Both the position numbers and the translations under genes were made by a program. This document shows positions 1 to 64,000 of a DNA stretch of 64,000 nucleotides, piece after piece. Origin of the DNA: Physcia stellaris. Taxonomy: Eukaryota; Ascomycota; Lecanoromycetes; Caliciales; Physciaceae. The stretch covers positions 1 to 64,000 of the forward strand of contig JABSSW010000002.1 of NCBI GenBank assembly GCA_018902385.1, written 5' to 3'. The stretch's first letter is position 1, and every line of letters starts with the position of its first letter. The notes beneath the pieces were generated by a model that worked only from the letters and a program-made list of their open reading frames with translations, did not search any database and was not told the DNA's origin.

Positions 1-395
1 AAATCGTTCGCGAAACTTGTAAAAAAAATGACGCAAAAACATAAAAAAAAATGTCAAAATTCAAATATCGATTTTTGAAATTTTGCAAAAAAAAAATATC
101 GAAACGTTTGTCACAAAATGTTTGAAAAATAAATCAAATACATTATTTTTGCGCATTATTTTGTTGATTAATTTTTATGAAAATGATTAATGCAAAAACG
201 ATTCATGCGAAACGAATGATTGTTCAAATAAAAATATTCATTTTGTTCGAAAAATTTTGAAAATGTTTATGAATAACAATGTTTCAATCATTTAAACACA
301 ATGTTATTTTGTTGAATATTAATTTACATAATTTGAATTCGTGTTTGAATTATTTTTTATATCAATATTTGTCACGCGTGAATTGAAAATTAAAT
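1..395. repeat. Direct repeat, copy 1 (partner at 3046)
   Basis: Aligns by eye over its length with 3046-3440 in the same orientation. Differences are scattered single bases and small indels, many of them C/T or G/A. The copy starts at or before the window edge, so its true left end is unknown. It contains one paired 8-mer element at 139-159, conserved at the same relative place in the partner. No protein is recognisable. Confidence 0.8.
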
Positions 396-2737
396 GATAA
401 TGTATGATGATAATGTATTTTCGTTATTTAATCAATTTAAAAATCGAACATTATGAAATTTTTATCGTTCGTATTTTCGTTGTTTTCGAATTCGTTTTCG
501 TCATCGAATTTTTTTCACGTTGTTTTTTTTTTCGTCATTGTCGTCGTTTTTTGCATTTTTTTTTTTGATCGCATTGAAAAAATCGATTTTAATATTTCGA
601 TTTTTTCGCATTGTGCGAAAAAACAAAATCATTAATTGTTTTTCGCATTTTTTTCATCGTCAACAAAATTCGTCGTTTTCAATGCGCGAATTTTTATATC
701 GTCATAAAACGCGTTGCGCAATCAATTTCATTATTGAATACAAATATTTTTTATTGCGTTTTGCACGCGTTCAATGTCGTTATCGTTTTGCATTTAAAAT
801 GAATCATTAATGAAATCAACAAATTTTGACAAATTTTGACATTGAAAATTCATCGATTGTTGTGCAAATTTGAATTTTGTTGTTCGGACGTATAATTTCG
901 ATTGCATTTTTTTTGTATCGTTTTGTCGTGTTTGTTCGTCGAATTTTTTTATTTTGTTAATAAATTTCATTTTTTCAAAAGCACGTTAAAAATTAATTAA
1001 AAATCGCAATTTTTATATGTATTATTCGATTGATTATCATGATTGTCGTTTTCAATACGTGTATCGAACATTTTTTTTATCATTTTTTTTCAAAATTTTG
1101 CGATTTTTTTCATCAAATTCAAATCAAACAACAATTTTCATCAAATTTTTGAATTTAAACACAACGACATTGTCGACATTTTGTGCTTTTGTACAATTTG
1201 ATTTGAATATTCGATCAATGTTTTTTTTTCGCGATTAACGATATTTTTCAATTCGTCGAATAAATTTTAACAAATGTAAATTGTGCGAATTCGAACATTT
1301 TGAATGTAAATATCAACACGATAATGCGACAAAATAACGCATCATCATCAACAATGCTCAAAACGTACGTCGAATATAAATCAATACGAAACGATCGATA
1401 AAATGAAAACAAATTTGTAATTGAAATCATTAACAAACGTCATACGATAAACAATTCAATCATATTTGAAAACGAAAAAAACAAACGTGAAAATACAAAA
1501 TAATGTTTAATCGTCAAATTTGAAAATTTATTTGCAATAAAATTGATTAACATCGATAATGCGATATGATAACGCATACAATTTTAAAATATTCACAACG
1601 TAAATTTAAAAAAACGAAAAATAACGAATATTACAAAAAAATAATCGAATATGAAATGATTTATCAATATCAAAAAAAAAAAAAAACTGAAAATGTTATA
1701 AAAAATCGATCGAAAATTGTCGACACGCGATTGTCGTTTATCGAAAAAATTTAAACGTCGAAATCAAAAACAATATTTCGATGCAAAATATTTAATCAAA
1801 CATTCAACACGATCGCATCAATATTTTTGCAACGTTTGCAAATAAAACAAATTTGAATCGCAATAAAATGAATTTACTGATTGTTGAACAGATTTCGATA
1901 AAACGTATCAACAATTTTATTGAATAATCATTTATAATAATAATAAATAAATAAAATAATGCATGAAAATAATGCGTTGCCGATTAACATTAATTAAAAA
2001 TCGATGTCATCAATTTCATAAATCAATTTTTAAATGTTGTCGATTTTCAATCAAACAATGAAAATAACGAAAATAATATTGATAATAATTCGAAAAATGT
2101 TCAAAACACGAATAAATAATAATGCATGAAAATAATGCATAAATTAACAATTTTCAAAATTTATGATCGCGAAAATTGATTTGTTTGTTTCGTTTGTGAC
2201 GAATATTCAATCGTTCAAATATAAATTTTTGAACAACGTGATGCGCAAATTTCAATCGACAATCGATACGAAATTTGAAAAAAAAAAAAATGATGAAATC
2301 ATTGATGTCAATAATAATATCAATAATAATAATAATTTTTTTTTGATAAATCAAATAATGCATGAAAATAATGCATAAATTAACAAATTATAACAATTGT
2401 TAAAAATACGAAAATTTCAAAAAAATTCGCAATGAAAACGATTCAAAAATTTGAAAATCAAAAAAATGTCGAAAACAATATTTCGAATGAAAAAAAATTT
2501 GATGAAAATGAAAATTTGAATGCAAATCAATTCGATGATAATAATTTTGACGATAATGAAACGAATAACGATAACGATATTCGAATTTTGAATAAATCGA
2601 ATAATGCGTCAAAATAATGCACAAATTAACAAATCGAAAAACGTCGCATGAAAAAAACAAATCGACGAATAAATAATAACATTGATATAAACAAAAACAA
2701 AACGTCAATCAAAAAATCACAAAAATTGATTTTTATC

Positions 2738-2842
2738 GCGTTCAAATTTTTCGCGTTCAAATTTATTGCGTTCAAATTTTTTGCGTTCAAATTTTTTGCG
2801 TTCAAATTTTTTGCGTTCAAATTTTTTGCGTTCAAATTTGCA
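2738..2842. repeat. 15-bp minisatellite, seven tandem copies
   Basis: Unit GCGTTCAAATTTTTT repeated head to tail from 2738, with small variants in copies 1, 2 and 7. On the plus strand it reads as KFFAF repeats and on the minus strand as NLNAK repeats. Both are low complexity and probably not coding. Confidence 0.9.
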
Positions 2843-3045
2843 ATTCAATCGAACAAAAAATCAATCGCAAAACGTTTGAAATCATTGATTAAAAAAATGA
2901 CGAACAAATCGATAATGCATTCAAATTATGCGTTATCGAATATTGATTAACACATCAATAAAAACACAAACGAACAAAATTCGAAATGATCGCATTGCGC
3001 GAAATTAAACGTTTTCAAAAAATCATTGAATTATTAATTGCAAAA

Positions 3046-3440
3046 AAATCGTTCGCGAAATTTGTGAAAAAAATGATGCAAAAATAAAAAAAAATGTCAA
3101 AATTTAAATATCGATTTTTGAAATTTTGCAAAAAAAAATATCGAAACGTTTTTACAAAAATGTTTGAAAATAAATCAAATGCATTATTTTTGCGCATTAT
3201 TTTGATGATTAATTTTTATGAAATAATTTATGAAAAAACGATTCATGCGAAACGAATAATTTTTCAAATGAAAAATATTCATTTTGTTCGAAAAATTTTG
3301 AAAATGTTTGTGAACAACAACGTCACAATCATTTAAACACAACGTTAATTTTGTTGAATAATTAATTTACATAATTTAAATTCGCGTTTGAATTTTGTTT
3401 TTCAAATCGATATTTGTTATGAATGAAATGAAAATTGAAT
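3046..3440. repeat. Direct repeat, copy 2 (partner at 1)
   Basis: Second copy of the repeat at 1-395, starting with the same AAATCGTTCGCGAAA sequence. It carries the paired 8-mer element at 3180-3200. The two copies lie 3,045 bp apart. They could be long terminal repeats or fragments of one dispersed element; no flanking target-site duplication could be confirmed. Confidence 0.8.
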
Positions 3441-5460
3441 CGATTAACATTTAAAAAACGCGAAATGTCAAATTATGTATGTATTTGACGATTTTGTTGT
3501 CGAATTATCATCAAAATCATATAAAACGAAAACAAAATTTTTGTCAAATATAACGTAACAAAATATCATCAATTTTCATGTTGTTTATAATTGATTTCGA
3601 TTTATAACAATATTTCATGAAATAATAATAATATGATAAATGATTTTTTGTCAATTTTGAACAATACATTATATCATTATTTTTCATTTTAATTTTTGAA
3701 TTGTTAAAATTTTATTTATGTTTTTCAAATAACGCAATATAAATATGAATTTTAATTTTTGCATTAAATTATTGCGTGCAAAAAAATATTAAATATCGAA
3801 TTATTCGAATATTTAATTTTTCAAAAAATCAAAAATCATCATAAATAAAACAAAACAAATGTTCATAATAACAATATTTGTTTTTTAATAAAATTGAAAT
3901 TCATTTTCGATTGTTGAAAACAAATAATTTTAATACATCGAAATAAAAAAAAAAAATAAAATATCGATTTAAAAAAACGAAAAAATAATAAAATATTATT
4001 CGATTAATTTCGTATATAAATTAAAACAATACGATTTGATATGTTATTTCAAATATATTATATATGTTTGTATAAATCATTTAAATTATTGAAACATATA
4101 TTATTTATATTACAATCATAAATTTATAATTATATTTTATAATTATATTATATTTTTTATTATTTATATATTTTATTCGACATATGTTTCGATTGAAAAT
4201 GATTTAAAAAAATGATCAATTTTTGTGTGAAAAATTTCTCTTCTTTGTTTGTTCACGATTTTATAATTATATTATTATTTTATTAAATTTTATATTTTCA
4301 ATATGATTTTATTATAAAATGATTAATCTTGACGTCAAGAAAAAATTTTGCAAAGCACAATTTTTTTGTAATTTTATAATAATTTATATATAATATTTAT
4401 TGAAATGAAATTTTATTAATTGTTTAAATTATTTCGTACGTTTTTATTGTGATTATATTTTATTTTATTAATTGTTTAAATTATTGTATGTTAATATTTT
4501 AATTTCAAATTTGTATTTTTTAAAAACAAATATTTGTATCATATATATGTTTGAATTTGAATTGAAAAAACGTTTATATTGAATTTCAAATTTTTAATTT
4601 TAAAAATGTATTTCAATTAAATTTTAATTTTTTCAAAATTCGAATATAATTAATATCAATATTCGTTTTGAAAATTTCAATTGATTGAATTTTCAATGAA
4701 AAATTTATAACATTAATTTTTATATACGAATTAACATGTTCAATAATTTTTTAATTAATTTAATATTTTTGTTTTGAACAATTATTCGTTTTGCATGAAT
4801 AATTAATTTGTTAACAATTAATAAATATCAATAAAATTATAATTTCAAAATTCGAACAATTAAAAAAATATTTATTTTCGAATATATCAATGACATAAAT
4901 TTCGATTGTTTTTTGTAATATTTTCAAAACATTTGTTTGAATTCGCATTTCGACATTTTGATCAATTATTTCAAACAAAATTTTTCGAATCATTCGTTGA
5001 AATGACAATTTTGATATCATAAAATCAATCGATTTTTGATATTTTCGAATTTTTTAAAAACGTTCAATCGCGTTTTGTTTTTGATTCAATAAAAATCAAT
5101 TTGTGCGAATCAAATGCATTATCAATATGCATTATTTTTTTTGATTTCGATTTTTTGTTCGAAACATTATTCGAAACAATTTTACGCGAAATTTCAAAAA
5201 CGATCAAATCGATTTGAAAATTTTTTTGTTAAATCACGAATTTTTTTTTTGCGCGAATTTTTTTTTCAATATCATTTTCACGATTTTTATTTCGTGAATT
5301 TTTAATTCGTTTATTCACGATTTTTTTTCGCGAATTATTATTGATTTGAAATTGATCAATTCGTTTTTGAATCGTTAAAAATGCGACGATGTTTTCGTTC
5401 GCAACAATATCGTTAAATTTCGATATTTTTCGCGATTTTCGATGCACATTATCAATATTT

Positions 5461-5780
5461 TTTTCGAAATTTTCAACAAACGAATTGATTTTTTCATTTT
5501 TTTTGTTTTCGACATCATTCAAAAATTTCGTGATCATGATATTTAAAAAATCATTTTTCAATTTTTAATCGTCAAATGCATTATTATCAAACATTATTTC
5601 GATTCATTTTATCGATGATTTTTTCGAAATTTTCAACAAACGAATTGATTTTTTCATTTTTTTTGTTTTTGACATCGTTCAAAAACATCGTGATCATTGT
5701 ATTTAAAAAATCAATTATTAATTTTTAATCGTTGAATGCATTATTATTAAACATTATTTTGATTTATGTCATCGATGTTT
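5461..5780. repeat. Tandem duplication, 160-bp unit, two copies
   Basis: The sequence starting TTTTCGAAATTTTCAACAAA at 5461 recurs at 5621, and the rest of the unit follows in the same order with a few substitutions. Each unit contains one imperfect paired 8-mer element (5577 and 5737), so the duplication also copied that element. Confidence 0.85.
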
Positions 5781-6393
5781 TTTTTTGTTTTTTGTTCGTG
5801 TCATTCAATTCAAATTTTAAACATTTTTTCAAAATCGAAAAATCGATATCAATTTCGTTTTTCATGAATGTTTTATCGTTTCGCGAATTAAAATTTTCAA
5901 TTTCGAAAATGTTTGAATTTTGAAAATGTTTTGATAAATTTGTCGTTAAAAAATATTTTCGAACAAATTTTGTTGTATTATCAATAATATATTCAAACAA
6001 TAAAATGAAAAATACAAATTTTCAAATTTTATAAAATTCATGTTTGTTTGTGTTACGAGATAATTTATCAAATAAATTATTAATAATAGATTAATTAAAA
6101 TACTAAAGTGAAAATTGAAAAAAAAAAAAATCAACGTTTATACGATTTGAAAATTAAATTTTGCAATTATATGCGATTATGCGCAATTTAATTAATATTT
6201 TCGATATTTTGATTGAATGCAAATAATTTATGCATTATTTGTTTGCATTATCGATGATTATTGCAAATTTCATTTCAAATCGTTTATTATTAAATTTTGA
6301 AATCATAAAACGAAACATTTTTTTTATTGAACGACGAAAAACATTTTTCATCGCAATTTCATTATTTTCGTTTTTTCATCGTTTTATTAAATT

Positions 6394-8493
6394 TCAAATT
6401 TTCGAAACAACATTTTTAAATTTTGCATTTATCGTTCGATTATAATATTTGATTATTATCGTTTTTTCAATCGTTTTTTGATTCAACATTGTTCGATCAT
6501 ATTTACAAATTCGACGTGTCAAATTGAAAATTCGTTTCATTTTTATCGATAAAACAAAACAAAACAAAATATTTTTCGTCATTCGAATCAATCGAAAAAA
6601 TTCGAAACATTATCGTTTCAATATTGTCAATTAAAATTTTTTTCATGATTGATATAAAAAAATAACGTTCGATTTCGTTTTGTGATTGTTTCGATTTTCG
6701 ATTCGATCGCAAAATCGAATTAATAAAAAAATTTATTGTTTTGTTAAATTGAATTTCAATGCATTATTTTGATGCATTATTTTTTTATCGAACGATTAAA
6801 AAATAACGCGTTGAAAATCATTATATATTTTGTCATCATAATGATTTCGATAATAATTAAAAATCGTTTACGAACGTCGTTGATATACGCATGTTTTTTT
6901 TTTTTGTGATTTTTTCGAAATTGTCATTTTCATTTCAAATTTCATAAATCGATAATTTGTTGATTGAATTTAAAATATTAACAAAATCGTATATCAATTC
7001 ATCATTTTTTTTTTGTTTTCGCATAATATTTGAAAAGTTTTTGAATGATTTTCGCACAAACAATTAAAATTAATGATTTGTCGAAACATTGATTTTGTCG
7101 TATCGTGTCATTGAAATAATTCAAATGATCGTATAAAAAATTGAAAATTTTAAATTTAATTTGCACATTAATGTTCGTGATTCGAAAAACAATCAATGTA
7201 ATTTCGTAAAATGTTTTTAACATGTTTTCGAAAAATAAAATTTGATTTCAATCATCATCAAATATTCGAATTTTGACAATTTTGACATCGTTGCGATTTT
7301 TTTGAATTCATTTATCAACGAATCGTCGAAATTGATAAACACGTCGTATCATAAAATAACAAAAATTTCAACGAATTTTGACATTTTGTTTCAATTTTCG
7401 AAAACGTTTAATTTTTGTTTTTTTTTTGTAATTTCACAAAACGAATTTTTCGTTGCGAAAAAAAATTGATAACAATCGTCAAAACACGAATTTAATTATT
7501 TTGTTAACAAATGCATTATTTTTTTGCATTATCAAATTGATTTATTTTTTTGACGATTTTTGACATTTTTGTATTTTGTTCGATGTCATCGATTTGATCA
7601 TTTTTCAAACTTTGAATAACATCATCGTTAATAATTTCGATTTCAATCGAATTGATAAAATTTTGTGCGATTAAATTGCACACATGAATTAAACAATTCA
7701 TGAAATTTTGATTCACATTTCAATTAATGTTCATTTCAATCATCGTTAAATTCAATAATTGTTTGAAAATGCGATTATTGAATGCATTATCAATCGTGAT
7801 CGTTATTAATTTTTTTGTTATTTCATAAAATTTTAATATTGACAATAAAAATTTAACATTTTTTTTTCATGACAAACATTTAACGAAACAAAATCGATAA
7901 ATTTTTTTTGATATTGAAAATTAATATTCATTCAATATATCATCACATTTAAATAAACGATTTTTTGTTGATTGAATTAAACATTTAACGAAATAAAAAT
8001 TCGATCAACATTTTTCAATTCGTTTTTCAATTGATCACGAATTTTTTCATAATTTTTCGTTACAAATTGATTTAATTTGATGCGATGTGATAATTTCAAA
8101 ATGAATCGATTCATTTTCAAACATATTCGAAAATGTTCGTTTTCGATCGTTCGATAAAAAAAATCACAAACAATAAAAATTTTGATTAAATGTTTTTCAA
8201 AAAAATTTTCGTCGAATGTTGCACGAAAATCGAATTTGTTTTTTTTTTAATAAAAATAAATAAATGCATTATCAACATGCATTATTCAACAAATTTACAT
8301 TGACATTTTCGAAAAATTCGATTATTTTTTGAAAATCAAACGACATTGTTCGATTTTTTTTTTCAATTTTAAAACGATGTTTTGCGTTTTTCAAATGTTT
8401 GTTTATGACGTTGATGTCGTCATTTGCGTTTGACGAATGTTGTTGAATTTTATGACATGTTTTACAAACAATCATTGATGTTTCGTCAAACAT
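6394..8493 (-). mobile_element. Decayed hAT-family DNA transposon (transposase relic)
   Basis: Minus-strand fragments line up in order with hAT transposases. Near 8,380-8,470 there is a BED-type zinc-finger-like segment (CKTCHKIQQH with a later H-x5-H). Near 7,660-7,700 is a CLIHVCNLIAQNF block, like the hAT 'C..H..NL..Q.F' block. Near 7,030-7,220 are LKTFYEITL and later KLFKYYAKT, like 'LKPFYEATL...KYYSLT'. Near 6,430-6,540 is RIFNLTRRICKYDR followed by KTIEKTIIIKYYNRT, like the C-terminal 'RVFS.ARR..R.DR...K.IE....KYY' dimerisation region. Stops and frame changes separate the blocks, so the element is inactive. Paired 8-mer elements lie between blocks. Terminal inverted repeats were not found. 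Identification rests on motif resemblance. Confidence 0.65.
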
Positions 8494-9641
8494 TTTCGTT
8501 ATTTGAACAAATTTTTGTCAACATGAAACAATTTTATTTTTTTTGTTCGATCAATGTGAATTATTGTATTTTGTTTGAATTTTGTTCAAAATATTTTTAT
8601 CAAAATTGATTTGTTTTCATCATTTTAAAAAAACATTCGAATTTTTTTTTTTCAAAATACATATTTTTTATTGTTATGAAAATTAAAATCAAAATGTTTT
8701 GTTCGAAATTTTTTCGTCAATTTGATTATTTGATTTTGACGATTATCAAAAATTGAAATTATCGATAATTGAAATTTGTGATGATTATCAAAAATTGAAA
8801 TGATTGATTGTTGAAAATTGTCAATTGACATATCGTTATCGTCGTTCATGATGAACGAACTTTTTAAATTTTGAATTGAAAACGAAAAAAAATTCGAAAA
8901 CAATTCGAAATTCGACATTTTATTTGACATTTGAATAAATGATAAAAATAATGCAAAATAATAATGCAATTTGAAACATTAATTGTATATAACACGAAAT
9001 CAAATTTCAAAATAATGCACAAAAATAATGCAAATATGATAATTGCAATTGTTCGATGAAAATCTTGAATCAAAAAATAATATAATTCAAAAAATAATAA
9101 ATTGTCGAGAAAAATTGATAATAATTTCGAATACAAAATAATATTATGATTATCACGTTTGATTTATATGAAATAATGCAAAAAAAAAATTCGAAAATTC
9201 TGAAAAAAAAACATTTATAATTAATATCAAAAATATCGCGAAATAATGTAATACGTCATGAAATTAGAATTTTTGACGAATCAAATCAAATTCGACATCG
9301 AAATTTGAAATTTGATTCAAATTCAAATCAAATTTTGACATTCTGACTTGAAATTTGATTCAAACTCAAATTTTTTAACGTGTCAAAAGTTTGAATTTGA
9401 TTCAAATTCAAATTTAAATCGAAATTTTCGACTTGCAAATCGAATCAAATCGACGCATTCGAACTTGAAATTTGATTCGACGATCAATTTAATCAAAATA
9501 TTGAATTCAATTCAATTTCAACAAATGTTCAAAACGTCAATGATGTAATCGAAACATATCAACGCATTTTCATCATTATAATCAAAACAACGTTATTGAC
9601 GAAAAACATATCGATTTTTTTGTGATCAAACATCACATGCA

Positions 9642-12000
9642 ATGACGTATATCAAGAATCGACGTTCAGTCTCGTATCTGAAAAATCAATCATCGTTCGA
9701 AAATATCTACGAACAGTTTTCGAAATTGACGAACATGTATTCACTCGAATCAATCGTTTACGTCGTCATCAACAAGAAAATCAAAAATCATTTGAAATCG
9801 AATGTCGAAAAGAAAATTCTCATCGAATATGACGATGACATCATTTATCGAATTTACATATCGATTAGTCAAAAAATCGAACGCGTCAAAAATTTCGATA
9901 TTTACGATCATAAATCAACATCAAAAATTAACATCGAATTCGATGAAAATTTTATCGAATCAATTGTTGACTTAACAATGATGAACTTTTTTGTTATTTA
10001 CATTAAGTTCACGACAAAAGAGCAAAAAATTCAATTTCAAATTTTTCAAAACATTGAAATTCGATCACATATCGAAATCAGATTTTCAAATATCATTATA
10101 CAGAAGTCAGTGACGTCACAGCAGCAAAAAAGTTTTCAAAAATTTCACAAAAATACGTTACAATGCGTTCAAACAGAAAGACAATTCGAATAAATTTTTC
10201 TATGAATTTTATCGTTTACAATGTCATAATTTCTGTCAGTTTCACGATGTTTCACTTAGCAATGCGTGAATTGTTCGCAAATTGAAATTCAAATTTAAAT
10301 GATTTAATTGTTTTGTTCGACAACATTGTTGATTTTCAATCAATTTCAATTACAGACGCTGAATTTGATACGATCAATTTCGTTTCATTGTTGATCGATT
10401 ACGTCGAAAACATCGACGTTTTTTCGTTTGAAAAATTCATAACAATGTTGACGATTGACGAAAAAAAATCAAATAATTACAACGACGTCGCACGAAATTT
10501 TCATTTTTCACAATGACTAAAAACAATGAAAAAAAAATTCGATTTTTTATCGAAAAATCACATTTGAAATTTAATAAATTTTACGTTCGATGAAAAAAAA
10601 TCGTTGAACGATAAATGAATTTACAAATTCAAACGCAATGTCGATGACGTTGTAATACGATACAAAATTAAATGATGCGTCAAAATTTTTTTACAACAAT
10701 ACGACATTGATTTTGATCAAATTTTTGTTTTCGTCGTCAAATCAATGATTTTTCGAATTTTATTCGTCGTTGTCGTTTTTTTAAATTTGAAAATTGAACA
10801 AATGAACGTGAAAATCGCGTTTTTATACGAATTCATTGATTCAAATATTTACGTTAAATATTCGACAAAATATGACAATAACAAAACTATTTGCAAATTT
10901 AACAAAACATTATATAATTTGAAACAATTATTCAAATTTTGATATAAACGACTGTTCGAATTTTTTTTACAAAAATTAATTTTCAATTTTTTCGACGCGA
11001 ATCAAAACATATTCGTCACGAATGTTGATTTCAAAAATTTTATCATTATTACATAAATCGATAATATCAAAATCATTGTTTTCAATAAAATCATAATTAA
11101 TAAAACAAAAACGAAATTCAATAGCGTTTTCGATATAATTGATTTTGAATCAATAAATTTTTATTTTGATATAATCATTTTCAAAAATCGCGAAATGCAC
11201 ATAATTCGTTTTAATCAAAAAACATATATTCAACGTGTCGTTAAAAATTCGATTTACAAAATGCGAAATTAATTCGAACATTCATGAAAAAATTATTTAA
11301 TTCAATTTTCAACGTTAATCAAATTATCGATCGAAATATCAAACAATATCAAACAATGATGAATTCAATCATGTTTGCAATGATAAAAATCAAATCAAAT
11401 GTAACGAATGCGATTTTCATAATCAATCGATTTGTTCAAAATTTCAATTTTAATTATATCAAAACAATCAAACGTGTTATAATTTATTTCAATTTTACGA
11501 TCGATTTTTGCATAATTTACGACGATAATTTCAACAAAAATTAAACATCGAAACATATTGCGATGCAAATTGAATTCGTGACAAAATTTTCAAAAATTCA
11601 TCGAAACATATTTGTTTTTATTAAACGACGATTCGATAAATTGAATGTCAAAATTTCAATTTATCGTGATCACGTTTATTTGCGTCGTCGAATATATGAT
11701 TATATCATTCGTTGTCAAAGAAATTATTTAATTCAAACAATTATTCGTTGATTTACAAATTCAAAATCAATCGAACAATTACGTCAAAATATTGATAAAT
11801 ACGAACAATCAAAACGTTAAAACATTCAATGAGAATTCGATACATCATGATCGCATCAAACACGTCGATATCGTATATCATTATGTAAAAAACGAAATTA
11901 AAAAAAATTGCATTCAATTTAAATACATAACGATCGACATTATGTCAATCGACGATTTCATCAAATTTTTATTTTCGTTCAAATATTAACGATTTATCGA
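9642..12000 (+). mobile_element. Decayed Ty1/Copia retrotransposon (pol relic)
   Basis: Plus-strand fragments follow the Copia pol order. At 9,650-9,950, NRRSVSYLKNQSSFENIYEQ and following residues resemble the integrase C-terminal region ('NR.P...L...TP.E.......L..FG...YV...IGY....YR.Y'). At 10,745-10,940, LKIEQMNVKIAFLYEFID and KFNKTLYNLKQ match reverse transcriptase ('...I.QMDVKTAFL.G.L' and 'L.K.LYGLKQ'). At 11,345-11,500, YQTMMNSIMFAMI and VIIYFNFTID match 'Y...IGSLMYA..' and 'R.L.YL.GT.D'. At 11,860-11,980, HVDIVYHYVKNEI and later IDDFIKFL match the RNase H end ('HIDIRYHFIRE', 'AD.LTK.L'). Multiple stops make it inactive. LTRs were not identified. The 5' part keeps more CpT than its surroundings, suggesting a later insertion or lighter mutation. 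Confidence 0.8.
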
Positions 12001-12523
12001 CATGTTCGAAATGAATTAAACATCGTGATTCTATATTTTTGCAAATTCGAAAAAAAATGTTGAAATAAATTCATCATCAAAAACAATGTCAAAACGTTAT
12101 TCTGTTATAGATTAGCGTGCAAATTCTGTACAATAATTCACATTCATCACATGTACGATAGATATTATTATCATGAATAATAAGCACGTTGCATCCTACA
12201 TACCTGTAACAGTTTCAGCGCGAAATCGCTCTTTAGCTATGACCTGCTCTACCTTATGCAGCAACACATCTCAGTAATTTCTTTCATTCTTTCATCTACG
12301 TGCGCGTGCTTTTCGGCTCCGTCTTGATATCTTGATCGATACCTGACTCATCGCCCTATAAGGTTCAGGCGCTTCCTCCCCTGGCGCCAGAATCTCCATG
12401 ATCGAACAACTTGATCCAACTCTGCTTTGGTCTACTATCCAATACTACGGTTTGGCAGTATCTCCATCAAACACAGAATCCCTTACATGCCAGATCGAGG
12501 TAGACTTAGGGAGTCTGGCGTAG

Positions 12524-56383: not shown

Positions 56384-59300
56384 GGCCACCTCGACACGCT
56401 AGTCATGGATCCCTCCTTCCTCGCACGCGTCAAATCTGGAACCAGCCCAGTGGTAGAAGAGTCTATGCCCATGGTGGTAGCCTCCATAATGAGTCGCCCA
56501 TATGCTCTCTCGTTATAAAGTTATCGAGAACGACGATTTTGCAAGTCCGAGGGCGTGGAAAATAATCGGCCCGCTCGGAACCTCAGTATCGCGCCTTGCA
56601 AATGTCTGTTTCAAACGCCGTTTTTGCCGAAATTTTAGCGTGATACTCATCAAATCGTTGAAAAACGAGACAAAATGACAAAATCTCAATTCACGATCAC
56701 TCAAACTCAATTGAAATTTGATATATTTCGTTAATTGTGATTTTTGATGTTGAATTTCGTTTGATTGATCGATTCGTGCGAAACGCACGAAATATTTTTC
56801 ATTTGATGCAAAATGCATTAAACGAACGATCAAATCAACGTTCAATACGAATTCATTTTATATGTGTGAAATGCTTTTTCGTATTGATGTTGTAAAATTT
56901 TTTTTTGATGTTTTTTGATTTTTCATTCGTTGTAAATTTTTTCGTTTCATTCATGATTTCAAAACGTGACAAAAATTCATCGTCGTCGCTGTTGAAATCG
57001 TCGAAAAAACGAAAAAAATGACAACAATCAAAACGAAAAAATTTGAAATTCGATCGAAAAAATTCAATTTCAATTTTCAATCAAATTGAAAATCAAAAAA
57101 ATCAAAATTTTCATGAATTTTTTTTCGAAAAAAAATTTCGTTCAAATTCAACAAAACGAATTCGATGTCGAAAACAATCGAATTGTCGATGTTTTCACGA
57201 ATTTCGATAATGTTGAAAAAAAACGAAAAAAAAAAATTTGCAAATGAAAAAAATAAAAAATATTCAAATCGATCAAATCGACGAAATATCAAAATTGAAA
57301 ATCGAAATAATCATGTTTAAAAATCAATTCAAAAAAATTCGCAAAAAAAAAATTTTTATCGTTGATTTTGACGATGATGAATTTTTTATTCAATTCGTTG
57401 TTCAAATTATTGATCGATTCAAAAAACAAATGAAAATTGATGTTTTAAATAATGAAAAAAAAACTCGTCAAAAAAAAAAGAAAATCAAACAATTAAACAA
57501 AAAATTTTTTGAAATTGAATATGTCGTTCATATCAAAATCAAATTCGAAAAAATTGTCATTTTTGAAAATATCGTCGTACATCGAATTTTTGATTTTTCG
57601 CGTTTCGATTATCGTCATTTTTCAAAATTTATCATTATTAAAATGAAAATTCACGTCGACGTTAACAATGTAATCTGTTATCACATACGCATTGATGTCG
57701 TTTTGATTTGATATAAACAAACGATCGTTGAGAAAATTGTCATTTTATTGAACGAATTTGATGATTACGATTTGAAAATGATTTTTCGTTTGAAATCATC
57801 GTAACAAAATTCGATCAAAAAAAAATTCATGATTTATATCGACGTGCAATATCATAAAAACGTCAACGATCAATTTTTTGTTGTTGTTCAATCGTCGAAA
57901 TTTTTTTCTTTGAAAAAATTGAAAAAATTAAAACAAAAACAAAAAATGAAAAATCGCGAAAAAAAAAAACAAAAACGTTTGAATTCGATCGATAACGAAA
58001 AAAAAAAATTCATTATCGAATATCGATGCATCGATTTTTTGTGTTCGAATTACAAATTCAATGAAAATGTTGAAAATTATTGTTATTCTTTTAATCAAAA
58101 TCATTACAAAATGAAACAAAACGACATCGACGATTGAATGATTGAATTTGAACAAAAAAAAATCAACGTCGTCAAATGTTTTGATCATATAAAAATGAAA
58201 TTCAAACGTATGATTCGTAAAAAATTTGATCAAAAATTTCATAATGAAAATTTCGTCAATAATTTAATGATTATTTGAATTAACAAAAATATAATTGAAA
58301 TTGAACGATTTAAACATCGTCGTCGACGAAATTATATCAAATCGATTTTTTTCGACGAATTTTTTGCATTCGAACGTAAATCGAAACGTAAATTTCGACG
58401 AAAACATCGTCGCAATCGAAATTTCAAATTCAAACATGTCACGTTATCATCAACGATTTCATTTGTTCAATCGCAATTTTATTTTGTTTTTTTCAATGTT
58501 TTTTCGTCGAATAGTTTCGTCAAATTCAAAAAAAATGCAAATTTTTTTGTGACAAATTTTATTAATTGAATAATTCACGATCATATGAAATTGAACATTT
58601 CGAAATTTGAATTGAAAAAACGCAAAAATTTTATACAAATCGATCGAATGTTTTTGACAAAAAATTTGATTTTCAAATCGTTCAATTCAAAAAAAATTTC
58701 AACGAAATCGAACAATGATGAAAATTGCGCGACGTTAAATCAAATATCGACGTCAAATTCGCTCGTTATGTCAAAAAATACGAAAAATGAATCAAAAAAA
58801 AAAATCAAAATCATAATACGAAATCAAATGTGTTGAAATCGTCAAACGAAAAATCGAATTTGATAAATGAAATGCGAAATAAATGATTGATTTTCTATTT
58901 TGCGTTAATATCATACAAAAAAAAAATACGTTGATTTTCGTTTTTTTTGATGAAAAATATTTGATTTGACGTTCGTTAAATTGATATTTACAACAAAATC
59001 GCATTGCGAAACTGTAATTTATCAATTCGTTTCATCAATTTTTTTTTTTTTAATTTCAAATGTTGATTTTACAATTATTTGCAAAATTAAATTTTTCATT
59101 TTTTTTTGAAATCGATCGAACGTTGTATGACGTTTTTTTTTCACGACGTTCATTTCAAACATCGTTTATTTCGCAAAAAACATTTTCGTTTTCTCGTTCG
59201 AACATGCGAATTTCTCGATCAATTTTTTTTTTTTTTTTTTTTGTATTTTCATCATTTCGAATTGATATTCAATTGCAAATTGAATTGAACGCGAATGATA

Positions 59301-59636
59301 CGCAAATGACGTATTTAAACGAAAAAAATGTGTTCGACATGCGAAAAAATTCAAATTACGAAAAAAATCGACAGAATTCGGAAAACAATATTACAATCGA
59401 CGAAAAATATCATTAAATAAAAAAACTCCGTATCGAAATTTAAAAGCGTGTTATATATATAATGATATTTGAAATTCAACGTTTTACGTATCGTTTTCGT
59501 AATCATACTCGATCGCTCGAAATAATTTGTCAAAATTATTTCGTTGATTTTGTGTTCACATCGCATCATGAAAAAATCGTTCGAAATTTTCAAAAAGTAA
59601 TTCATATGACGCGATCAAATGTTCATTACGTTTGAT

Positions 59637-60060
59637 TCATTTTTTCAAAACAACGAATGAAATTTCGATAAAATTAAAATTCGATAAATAAAAAAATAAA
59701 AAAATCAATTTCATTTCGATTTCGTCACACATTTGTTGTAATTTTTTTGATTTATGCGCAAAAGCATTATCGCATATTAAAATCGAATTGAATTTTTTTC
59801 GTTTGATTGATGTGCATAAAAATAAAACGTTTTCGTACACGAAATCATCGAACAAAATTTGATTTATAAATTCATGATGTATGATTCAAACGATGTATTT
59901 TTTGATTGTGTAAACAAAAAATATGAATCATTTTTTTGATTTTTTGAACAATGCATTAACGATTTTTTTTTGATTTTCAAATGTTCATAAATATTTTTTA
60001 TCGTCAATACGTTCGCAAATCGTCGTTTCGTCAAAAAACATCAATTGATGAAATTTTCAT
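59637..60060 (-). mobile_element. Decayed Tc1/mariner-type DDE transposase
   Basis: Minus-strand pieces follow DDE_3-type endonucleases in order: QLMFFDET (first Asp codon at 60,030-60,032); FDDFVYENVLFLC, like 'F..FV...VLPLC'; SILICDNAFAHKSKKLQQMC (second Asp at 59,769-59,771), like 'VMDNA..H.S..L..MC'; FFYLSNFNFIEISFVVLKK (Glu at 59,664-59,666), like 'PPYSPD.NPIE..F..LK'. All three catalytic acidic residues can be read, but stops lie between the blocks (for example near 59,880-60,000), so it is inactive. Terminal inverted repeats were not located. Confidence 0.75.
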
Positions 60061-61241
60061 TTCGTTGCACGAATTTTTCATTCATCGCGTTCATATTGAT
60101 TTCGTTGAAATGCGCGATATGTGACGAACGTGCATCGAATTCAACATTTGAACAGAATTAACATCGTGTTAACATCGTTATCTTATCATCGAATGTTAAA
60201 ATCGAAATTCGTTTTGACGCATTCAAAAATTAAATTTTTTACATATGTTTTTGCAAATTTTCATGTTTTTGCTTTTTATTTAAAAATTCTCGTGTAATTA
60301 TGTATTAATATCATATCAATGCATGACATTTCACATTATTTTTAAGTCATTTTAATCTTTTCAAGCTGTTCGAAATACGACAATTTATTCAATAAACAAG
60401 ATTTCAATCAAACGCGAAAATCTAAAACGTCAACAATCAAATTTTAAACGTGCAACGAGAACGAAAAAATTCTGCTCACGTGAAATCAAAAGTTCAAACG
60501 ATTCGAATGAAAACATCGAAATTCTATTTCACGCAAATCATTTTTTAAAAAACAGCGATTTCGAGTGTGAACTTTCACGAAAAAATCATTTCGATATTTT
60601 AACAAAACGACGACGAAATCGTACGTTACAGATCGAAACGACGAATTGACATCACTTTCGATCAATGAACGAAAACGACAAATTGTGTAAACGACGTTCG
60701 TTTTTATCAGAAATTTTTTATCAAAAATCAACATCAATAATCAAACATCGATTATTCATTTTATTTATCACATTTTTAAAAAACACGTTACATATCATTC
60801 ATTATTCGTTGTTTTTCGCAATCGATAATGATTTTTTCTATTTTTATTGCAAACGTTCATCGATTTCGATTTTTTTTTTTGCAAATCAATCATGTTTATT
60901 TTTATCAACATTTTTTTTGTGATCATTTTTTTAAATTTAAACGCAAAATTTTCAATCAAATTCAACAATTAATCGTTTTTTCGAAAAACGATCAAATTAT
61001 CGTTGATTCATTCAGATTGATAAAAAACATTTTTTTAAATTACGTTTTTTCGAAAAATACAAATTACAATTCGAACGATGTTAAATTCGCGATAAATATT
61101 TGTATCATTGAACAATTTTAAATGTGAATTCGCAAAAATTTCGTCACAATAATTCAGATGTTAAATCAATTCAAAACTGATCGTGACGTTGAAGTTCAAA
61201 TCATTTCGAATTGAAATTTTCATGTAAAAAACTATAATTCG

Positions 61242-62078
61242 TTGCTCAAAAATTTCGAAAAAATTGAAAAAAAAAACAAACGAATCAATCGAGAAATCGT
61301 TAACATATTCAGACGCGAAAATAAAATCATAAACAAACTCAATATTCAAATTGAAAAATTCAATCGAAAAAAGCAAAATTTACACGACGAAATAAACATT
61401 TTTCGTCTGAATTTTGCAATCACGTTTACATTTCAAAATGATATCAAATTTAAAATCGACAACGTTAAATTAGTCAATCGTAATATAAAATTACAAAACA
61501 AAATAAATTCATTAAAAATTCAAACATCGTCAATCAATTTCAAACTGCTTATTGATAAAAAAAACAAAAATGTCAAAATGTCGAATTTTCTCAAATTCAA
61601 TGAAAATATTTCAAATCTTTTTTATGAGATTTGAAAACAATTCGTCAAAAATAAATTCGTTGTCAACGTCGATCATTTCGTCGACGAATACATCAAAACA
61701 ACGACGTTCATCAATTGAATTGAAAACAAAATTCGAAAACATGTTTTCGCTAAACGTAATGTCGATATGATTTTTTTCAAAATTTTTCAAATAATTTTTG
61801 ATGTTTTATTTTTAATTTACGCAAAAAAGAACAAGAAACGAAACATACGAAATAAATTCAAAATTTTTATCATGCGTATCAATCAACGTTTTTCGAAATT
61901 TTTTTCGAAATTTTTGTTATTGTTCAATCAATTGTTTCATTATTCGCAACAGAATTTGACAAATGAATTTCGCGAAAAATTCATTTCTCAATTTCAGCGA
62001 GTCGTTGTTAGCAACGACAGATTTTGTTATGACACAAAAATCAAATTAAATGATATGAACTTAAATCAAATATTCTGA
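61242..62078 (+). mobile_element. Possible LTR-retrotransposon gag relic
   Basis: A plus-strand coiled-coil frame (61,242-61,634, rich in K, N, I and E) is followed by a frame containing FIMRINQRFSKFFSKFLLLF and then FREKFISQFQRVV. This resembles the 'F..F..EF..L......L...L..KL...LQ..V' signature of fungal Gypsy-type Gag. Protease, reverse transcriptase and LTRs were not recognised nearby. Weak identification. Confidence 0.35.
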
Positions 62079-64000
62079 CATGACTTTTGACAAGAATTTT
62101 GTCGTCATTTCATACTAAATGAGTAATGATCAGGCAATTGATTCGCAATTACTGTACATAAATTGACATTTTGTCGTTCATAATTTCTAAATCAATCAAT
62201 TCAGATTTTACGCATAACAATTGATAACATCATTCAAACGATGATTTGTACGTAAACAAAACGACATCATTTTCTGTTTTTTAACGTATCAGTTTTCGAA
62301 CAGTTTTGCACTCTGTATGCAAGTCAACTGTTCATCAGTATTTTTTTCACGATCGCAATCAAAAATTTGATTGTCGTTTGACTGACGTCTCGATCGACAA
62401 TCAATCATTCATTTTCATCAACAATCAGTACTCACTTGAAAATGAATCATTCAATCACGTCTTTTCGATTTTCTACAATTTTCAGTAAAAACGACTGATT
62501 TTTCTTTCAAATAGTTGAGCATTTCAAGTTTTCGCTTGAATTCGTGTTGTCATCGTTCAATGACGACACATTTGAACGTCAATTCATCATCGAGTTTTTG
62601 TCTGATTCGAGCAATTCAATTTAACGATTTCATTTGTCTTTTCATCAACAAATAATTTGCTCAACAAATCTTGAAAATTTCAATTCGTTTCTTTTTTTTT
62701 GTTTTGTTTATCATCATTTTATCTCAAATCTCAATACGACACATCATTTTCATTTAAGTCATTTTGATTGTTTTTATATCACAAGTCATTCGCATTGCGT
62801 TCGAACTATTCGATTACATCGATACAATTGACTCGATTTATTTTGTCAATACATTTGCAAAAATTACTGTGAACAATATCGTAATTAATTGTTTTAAATC
62901 AACATCGTTGTCAATTATTAGTCATTCAGTTTCGACAAACATTGTTTATTCAACAGAATGAATCGTCGACAAAATTCGCTTTCGCAAAAATCTTAAAATT
63001 TTCGTGATCGTCATCGAAACGTATCGAAACAATCAATCATTTTTCGACTGAATTAGTGATCGAATTACGTCATTCATTTCTGATTTAAAATCGACGATTG
63101 CAAATATTTTTTTGATATTTTTTACGTTCATTTTTCGAAAAATTTACGTCGTAAATTTCAAATCATTTCGTCGACGTCGTTTTTTCAACGACGAAATAAC
63201 ATCATAATTTCGCTGAACATCATTTTTCGAAACACAAAAAATATCGAATCTATTTTCGCATTCAATTCAAATATGACGAGCGAAAATAACAATTGACAGA
63301 ACACGAAATTCACGTAACAGCAATGACAAATTTTTCAAACATTGATTACAAATGTTCGAAACGATGTTCAGACAAAATTTCGAAATTCTGTCGAATCATC
63401 AAATTCAATCGAATTTTTTGACAATGATAATGACGTCAAATGAAATGTTCAAAAAACAAAATTTTTCGATTCGTGATACGAAAAGAAAACGCTATCATCG
63501 ACAATTCGATCGAACATTCGAACAAAAATACATATTTTCGAAATGTTCATTTTTACATTGAAAAAATTAAAAATATGACATTGCTCAAAAATGTTGATGT
63601 GATTCGAACAAATTTTTATAATTGCATGCGTGATCACGCGTTACGTTGATACACAAAAATAATCAACGATAATCAAAAACGATTGATCAAACTCGAAAAT
63701 GACGTAAAAAAATGAAAACGTTTGTTGTTGAAACGATACAAAAAATCGTCATTAACAACGTTGACGATCATCACGAAAAAAAAATACACGATAAAAAATG
63801 TTCGTCGACATCGCGAGTCATTCGATTTCGCTGAAATTATAATCAAAAAAATTAAATCGACAATGATGTCAATTTACTCGCAATTGTATTTAATTTACAA
63901 TGAATTGAAATTGAAATTTCAACGAAATTTGATCAAGTCGACAAAAAAAATTACAATGAATGAATTTTTCAACAGCTCGATGATAAAAAGAAAATATGAT

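Follow-up and report, generated by a model that had tools for sequence, protein, structure and literature searches.

Two AT-rich repeat blocks nearly free of CpC and CpT

The window analyzed here is a stretch of 64,000 nucleotides of Physcia stellaris DNA, bases 1-64000 of contig 2 (C2; JABSSW010000002.1) in an assembly of 43,974,083 bases and 147 contigs (GCA_018902385.1), and it begins at a contig end. Two AT-rich blocks, at 1-12213 (delimited by dinucleotide counts in 100-bp steps) and at 56600-64000, have lost almost every cytosine followed by a pyrimidine (CpY: CpC or CpT) and, on the same strand, almost every guanine preceded by a purine (RpG: GpG or ApG); the right block extends into C2:64001-66000 (L043). 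Between them lies a gene-rich stretch (12214-56560, about 50% GC) whose dinucleotide counts show normal CpY and which served as an unmutated control. We ask here which process removed CpY from these repeats, and how it relates to repeat-induced point mutation (RIP).

The left block is built of mutated repeats. On the forward strand at 1-3444 lies a mutated repeat with direct repeats at both ends, resembling long terminal repeats (LTRs; 1-398 and 3046-3444, 90% alike by self-BLAST), for which the genome search listed 68 matches, the window included; many members of this family form head-to-tail arrays of roughly 3-kb units with common LTR-like ends (C4, C44, C29, C65, and other contigs). At 9491-12213, also on the forward strand, is a mutated part of a copia-type LTR retrotransposon (RVT_2), with 40 genome matches listed, one of which (L040, with RVT_2 and SH3_retrovirus domains) is unmutated. 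The right block contains a strongly mutated repeat at 56700-59400, for which one other near-full copy was found (C36, 94%), so that two copies would be enough for heavy mutation, as well as part of an abundant mutated family at 62024-64000 (41 matches listed); a query of 60140-64000 gave 449 first-look candidates in the genome.

The depletion is extreme. Positions 1-9,600 hold a single CpC, a single GpG, 19 CpT and 11 ApG, alongside 587 CpA and 434 CpG; thus CpY accounts for 20 of the 1,042 Cs and RpG for 12 of the 1,013 Gs, while in 200 mononucleotide shuffles CpY averaged 530 and never fell below 490, and RpG averaged 498 with a minimum of 464. Chance or base composition is therefore ruled out as the source of the pattern. 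The same holds, slightly less completely, for 9,601-12,050 (CpY 15/354 Cs, RpG 24/277 Gs) and 56,600-64,000 (87/1,065 and 66/889), and the counts for 12,100-56,400 (5,740/11,073 and 5,602/11,205) are near the shuffle values. Expressed as the ratio (CpC+CpT+GpG+ApG)/(CpA+CpG+TpG+CpG), a CpY index, the difference is 0.016 in the block vs. 1.04 in the gene-rich part. CpC and GpG are more fully lost than CpT and ApG in the blocks of the window. A patch of lesser mutation at 62001-63000 retains 31 CpT and 22 ApG but no CpC and one GpG, leftovers that fit CpC as the faster target.

The boundaries are sharp. The CpY share of C-type dinucleotides, followed in 100-bp steps, is 0.04 at 12,000, 0.27 at 12,100 and 0.51 at 12,200, so that it climbs from about 0.04 to a normal value across the edge of the copia element (12050-12213); at the right boundary the share is 0.43 at 56,500, 0.20 at 56,600 and 0.07 at 56,700. 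The initial annotation had reported that none of the 34 Cs in five sampled lines preceded C or T, and our recount gave the same figure (0/34); its description of 1-9,600 as lacking CpT and CpC while keeping CpA and CpG is borne out by the counts and by the comparison with shuffles in four segments. It was right that the signature occupies 1-9,600 but not that it stops there: the true end lies at about 12,100-12,200, and on the right the signature begins again near 56,600.

These features extend well past the window. Forty stretches of 600 bp were sampled at round coordinates, 20 on C1-C7 and 20 on contigs from C9 to C52 (all of them large contigs, with small ones unrepresented); eight had less than 35% GC, and in all eight the CpY share was below 0.15, while in the remaining 32 it was 0.46-0.60. 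If the sites are a fair sample, the signature would cover about one fifth of the genome.

Direction and context of the changes

The direction of change can be read from three LTR-retrotransposon families, each of which has a copy free of CpY mutation. ("Unmutated" is used here in that sense only; L040 and L048 lack a single long open frame.) For the copia family, 29 mutated copies, including the one in the window, out of 39 listed besides L040, were compared with L040, both strands pooled. L040 itself has 45% GC, with CpC, CpT and ApG near expectation and GpG at 0.52. Across the 29 copies, C-to-T changes had occurred at 7,050 of 7,271 CpC sites (97%) and 8,894 of 10,228 CpT sites (87%), but at only 1,340 of 13,498 CpA sites (10%) and 314 of 9,876 CpG sites (3%). 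Transversions were few: the CpC sites now read T (7,050), C (182), A (24) or G (15). The contrast is starker in L031, the least mutated copy (CpC 307/327, CpT 274/461, CpA 8/610, CpG 1/432), which corresponds to rate ratios of 207 for CpC/CpA (95% interval 110-456) and 67 for CpT/CpA (36-146).

The first gypsy family (gypsy-1) gave the same order. Its unmutated copy (L048/L052) carries RVT_1, RNase H and integrase domains, with 23 other matches listed; five of these, counted by the best alignment per copy against L052, had changed at 3,635 of 3,757 CpC, 3,229 of 3,953 CpT, 283 of 3,979 CpA and 186 of 3,765 CpG sites. The second (gypsy-2) has two unmutated copies, L049/L058 (with a 1,024-aa frame) and L059, and a partly mutated copy, L060, which gives a view of an early stage; here one mutated and one unmutated copy were compared, of 43 listed besides the reference L058. 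L060 differs from L058 at 698 of 899 CpC sites (78%) and 334 of 779 CpT sites (43%), at 21 of 829 CpA sites and at 17 of 824 CpG sites. The background, taken from the unmutated pair L059/L058, was 22/907, 26/788, 16/828 and 15/828 for CpC, CpT, CpA and CpG. Thus CpA (Fisher p 0.51) and CpG (p 0.73) are at background in L060 and CpC and CpT are raised (p < 1e-80 for both), which means that the early stage touches only CpY; background-corrected rates are 1.47 for CpC and 0.53 for CpT (about 2.8 times). A slight CpY excess within the unmutated pair is not significant (48/1,695 vs. 31/1,656, p 0.07).

The context order is therefore CpC > CpT >> CpA > CpG and is common to the three families. In the least mutated copies the rate at CpC is about three times that at CpT, and both exceed the rates at CpA and CpG by factors of tens to hundreds. 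Decay of methylated CpG is ruled out, as CpG is the least changed context in copia, gypsy-1 and gypsy-2. That AT-rich DNA might lack CpY through an accident of composition or of assembly could draw on the position of the left block at a contig end; this reading has a practically negligible probability, given 29 copies at as many places that were compared with an unmutated relative, the agreement of three families, and the presence of the signature in every one of the AT-rich stretches among the 40 sampled.

The consequences for coding capacity follow the same rule. In the reverse-transcriptase matches (149 of 150), 249 of 285 stop codons were TGA, 33 were TAA and three were TAG. Such an excess of TGA is expected if the loss of GpG turns TGG into TGA while CAA and CAG are spared; RIP of the CpA type would have produced TAG and TAA instead.

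Standard RIP indices do not register any of this. The block has a TpA/ApT of 0.47 and a (CpA+TpG)/(ApC+GpT) of 1.76; the RIPCAL cut-off for the former, as printed in PMC2621366, is 0.89 or more, that for the latter in PMC4188875 is 1.03, and the block fails both. Classical CpA-type RIP is ruled out by these indices together with the counts for CpA and CpC in the copia family. The initial annotation had anticipated that such indices would miss the block and had suggested a mutator of cytosines that prefers CpY; both expectations agree with the copy-by-copy comparison, in which CpA-to-TpA is not the main change among the 29 copia copies.

A probable RIP-type process and its possible mutators

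Mutation is restricted to repeats and spares unique flanks, as both the copia 3' edge and the middle of the window demonstrate. Within copia, 0.89-0.95 of CpY sites are mutated in the interior (500-bp bins); the fraction is 0.56, 0.62 and 0.36 in the bins from 3,950, 4,000 and 4,050, just before the end of the element at about 4,077. Sixteen copies reach this end, and their 3' flanks have a CpY share of 0.45-0.52 from the outset, the first 100 bp included. Both strands are mutated equally overall in the 29 copia copies. In L060, however, there are kilobase tracts of one-strand mutation: between 1,000 and 2,000 bp, 8 of 68 CpC sites are mutated on the plus strand vs. 82 of 89 on the minus strand (Fisher p 2e-26), and at 5,500-6,000 the counts are 2/25 on one strand vs. 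36/41 on the other.

We favor the explanation, to which we assign a probability of about 0.65, that a RIP-type genome defense turned C to T in repeats, on both strands, wherever a pyrimidine follows the C. Repeats would be recognized by homology during the sexual cycle, and the mutator would be a cytosine methyltransferase of the RID class, most likely one of the two found here, with a preference at the +1 base that would have shifted from A to C or T.

The genome has candidates for this role, and the check for RID and DIM-2 methyltransferases suggested in the initial annotation found putative members of both classes. Two predicted genes are of the RID class, L009 (C6:790057-794028) and L011 (C5:497807-501292), each with a PF00145 domain and a PCQ motif. 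Motif VI is EET in L009 (a predicted 513 aa after two introns, with a short target-recognition region in the splice prediction) and EQT in L011; the two are 39% alike in the catalytic part. Among solved structures, L009 had no close relative beyond methyltransferases in general. A third gene, L010, has PCQ and ENV motifs and its best solved relative is 9bap (E 4e-180), which we take to be N. crassa DIM-2; by these features L010 is classed as a putative member of the DIM-2 group. On PF00145, PCQ, and EET or EQT in place of ENV, L009 and L011 are likewise classed, from their predicted sequences, as members of the Masc1/RID group. In this group, according to passages of PMC6709928, N. crassa, A. 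immersus and P. anserina carry the triad EQT, while B. cinerea and P. destructans carry EET; the genome studied here has an EET-type and an EQT-type gene side by side, forms that those passages list for different species. According to the same passages, activity of RID in vitro is still unproven. The presence of RID-class and DIM-2-class genes together makes the process look like RIP with altered targets instead of a process apart from RIP.

L009 would be the first candidate for the CpY mutator: since EET is found in B. cinerea Rid and a CpT signature is found in Botrytis and others, an EET-type paralogue may be the enzyme responsible. A wider form of this proposal is tentative and falls somewhat short of even odds. 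It holds that the whole RIP system has been re-aimed, with a mutator that reads the +1 base as a pyrimidine and has exchanged CpA for CpC and CpT; that TGG-to-TGA and missense changes disable the coding sequence of transposons and leave CAA and CAG codons intact; that the new specificity resides in the EET-type RID paralogue, whose EQT-type companion is conventional; and that such genomes have been scored RIP-negative in index-based surveys.

DIM-2 is the main rival to a RID-class mutator. Guided to repeats by heterochromatin, it could mutate them through methylation of CpC and CpT or through faulty catalysis. L010 is there to do so; Neurospora DIM-2 prefers CpT according to part of a 2026 review (PMC13297926), and DIM-2-mediated RIP is mentioned in a passage of PMC11969663. 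In the passages of PMC8016269, however, Z. tritici Dim2 promotes C-to-T change at CpA and methylates in the order CG, CA, CC, leaving CT nearly free, and in our data mutation ends within about 100 bp of the repeat edge, without the spread into flanks that heterochromatin-led action might give. Taken together, we consider this account unlikely, though the most serious of the alternatives.

The differences between copies bear on a slower process, in which silenced repeats are methylated at CpY and the methylated cytosines deaminate in the ordinary way, spread over many generations and not in a RIP-like burst. The degree of mutation does vary greatly by copy (from L031 to L028, and in L060), and mutation is lighter over the final 125 bp of the copia element (0.36-0.62), both of which suit gradual loss. 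Against this, L060 has 78% of its CpC sites mutated with CpA and CpG still at background, so that decay would need CpC to change at least two orders of magnitude faster than other changes; moreover, the one-strand tracts of about 1 kb suggest a few large events. We regard slow loss as improbable.

Those same tracts are what an enzyme acting on single-stranded DNA could produce, which is the one feature here that favors the editing of transposon DNA by an APOBEC/AID- or TadA-like DNA cytidine deaminase unrelated to RIP. Such deaminases are known for their 5' context. Here the 3' base alone decides and the 5' base is nearly neutral: across the four 5' neighbors in the 29 copia copies, 0.966-0.977 of CpC and 0.836-0.885 of CpT sites were mutated, and in three early-stage copies pooled the 5' effect was small (CpT from 0.44 in GCT to 0.60 in ACT). 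A deaminase with 5' context is ruled out by this weak dependence, and the deaminase account as a whole is very improbable.

Several observations weigh against a RIP-type defense with a RID-class mutator. The link of any enzyme to the mutations is one that we infer, and a DIM-2-class gene that could be the mutator is present as well. The sparing of CpA is not absolute, as the most mutated copia copy, L028, has changed at 145 of 609 CpA sites; CpA is then either a slow target or collects other mutations with age. The strand tracts were seen in L060, and L031 and L033 have no clear same-strand excess, which may arise once both strands have been hit. L058 (C5:1165121-1168420) and L059 (C12:58912-62209), taken with their flanks, are 96% alike over 6.3 kb and yet both are unmutated, and unmutated L040 and L052 coexist with many mutated kin; the process is thus not always on, or can be escaped. 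With so many mutated relatives of L058 and L059, it seems that the process is now off, is rare, or has been escaped by these copies.

Relation to known RIP-like systems

The likeness to RIP as it occurs in N. crassa and T. reesei is considerable: C:G-to-T:A change in repeats on both strands, unmutated flanks, AT-rich blocks full of stops, and genes of both the RID and DIM-2 classes. The order of targets is another matter. An excerpt of PMC10170752 gives CpA > CpT > CpG > CpC for N. crassa and, for T. reesei, CpG at or above CpA, followed by CpT and with CpC last; thus CpC comes first here and last there, and the stops here are mostly TGA.

Closer in target are the species with a CpT signature. 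Botrytis, Sclerotinia and Magnaporthe oryzae have one beside CpA, and in the excerpted text of Amselem 2015 (PMC4352252) CpT is linked to a motif of the RID protein in three species. In these, as in some Colletotrichum truncatum families, CpT is an important target, and the EET triad of B. cinerea Rid is that of L009 (passages of PMC6709928). They differ in that CpA is mutated too and, in the accounts excerpted, CpC is unnamed as a target. The indices also part ways: (CpA+TpG)/(ApC+GpT) is 1.76 here vs. 0.08-0.12 in the CpT families of C. truncatum, with copia ones at 0.09-0.12 (part of PMC6180176).

Two further systems resemble the present one in part. The CpG-type mutation of basidiomycetes and Tuber, in the portion of PMC4352252 that describes it, is likewise a C-to-T change in transposons judged from a high-GC copy, but in the present genome CpG changes least of all (3-5%). 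Methylation induced premeiotically (MIP) in Ascobolus immersus depends for its likeness on Masc1, placed by passages of PMC6709928 in one methyltransferase group with L009 and L011; MIP is methylation without mutation, whereas the repeats here are mutated.

What is distinctive here is that CpC ranks first and that CpA and CpG are spared almost fully. A survey published in 2025 and covering 1,239 fungal species concludes, in the text excerpted, that RIP-like defenses have a CpA preference in common (PMC12543289). Less favorable to novelty, excerpts of two papers have CpT-to-TpT leading in the alignments of RIP-capable controls (PMC7882544) and for Tad1 of N. crassa (PMC2621366). The open-access literature, so far as its passages go, yielded no report of CpC and CpT mutation with CpA spared; the Clutterbuck 2011 survey, outside that search, could hold one.

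Read as RIP, a CpY-saturated signature with CpA and CpG almost intact indicates that the choice of target in RIP is not fixed. Across fungi, the detection of RIP relies on indices that presuppose a loss of CpA, and surveys based on them can miss the CpY type. Where the preference is reversed, a natural pair of RID-class paralogues would also allow a direct test of whether RID itself selects the target.

Apart from these subjects, a search of Rfam gave no match within the window, and the universal ITS1 primer had no exact match in the whole genome (the ribosomal DNA may be missing, masked or changed in the assembly). The left block also contains a tandem duplication of about 160 bp, at 5437-5784.

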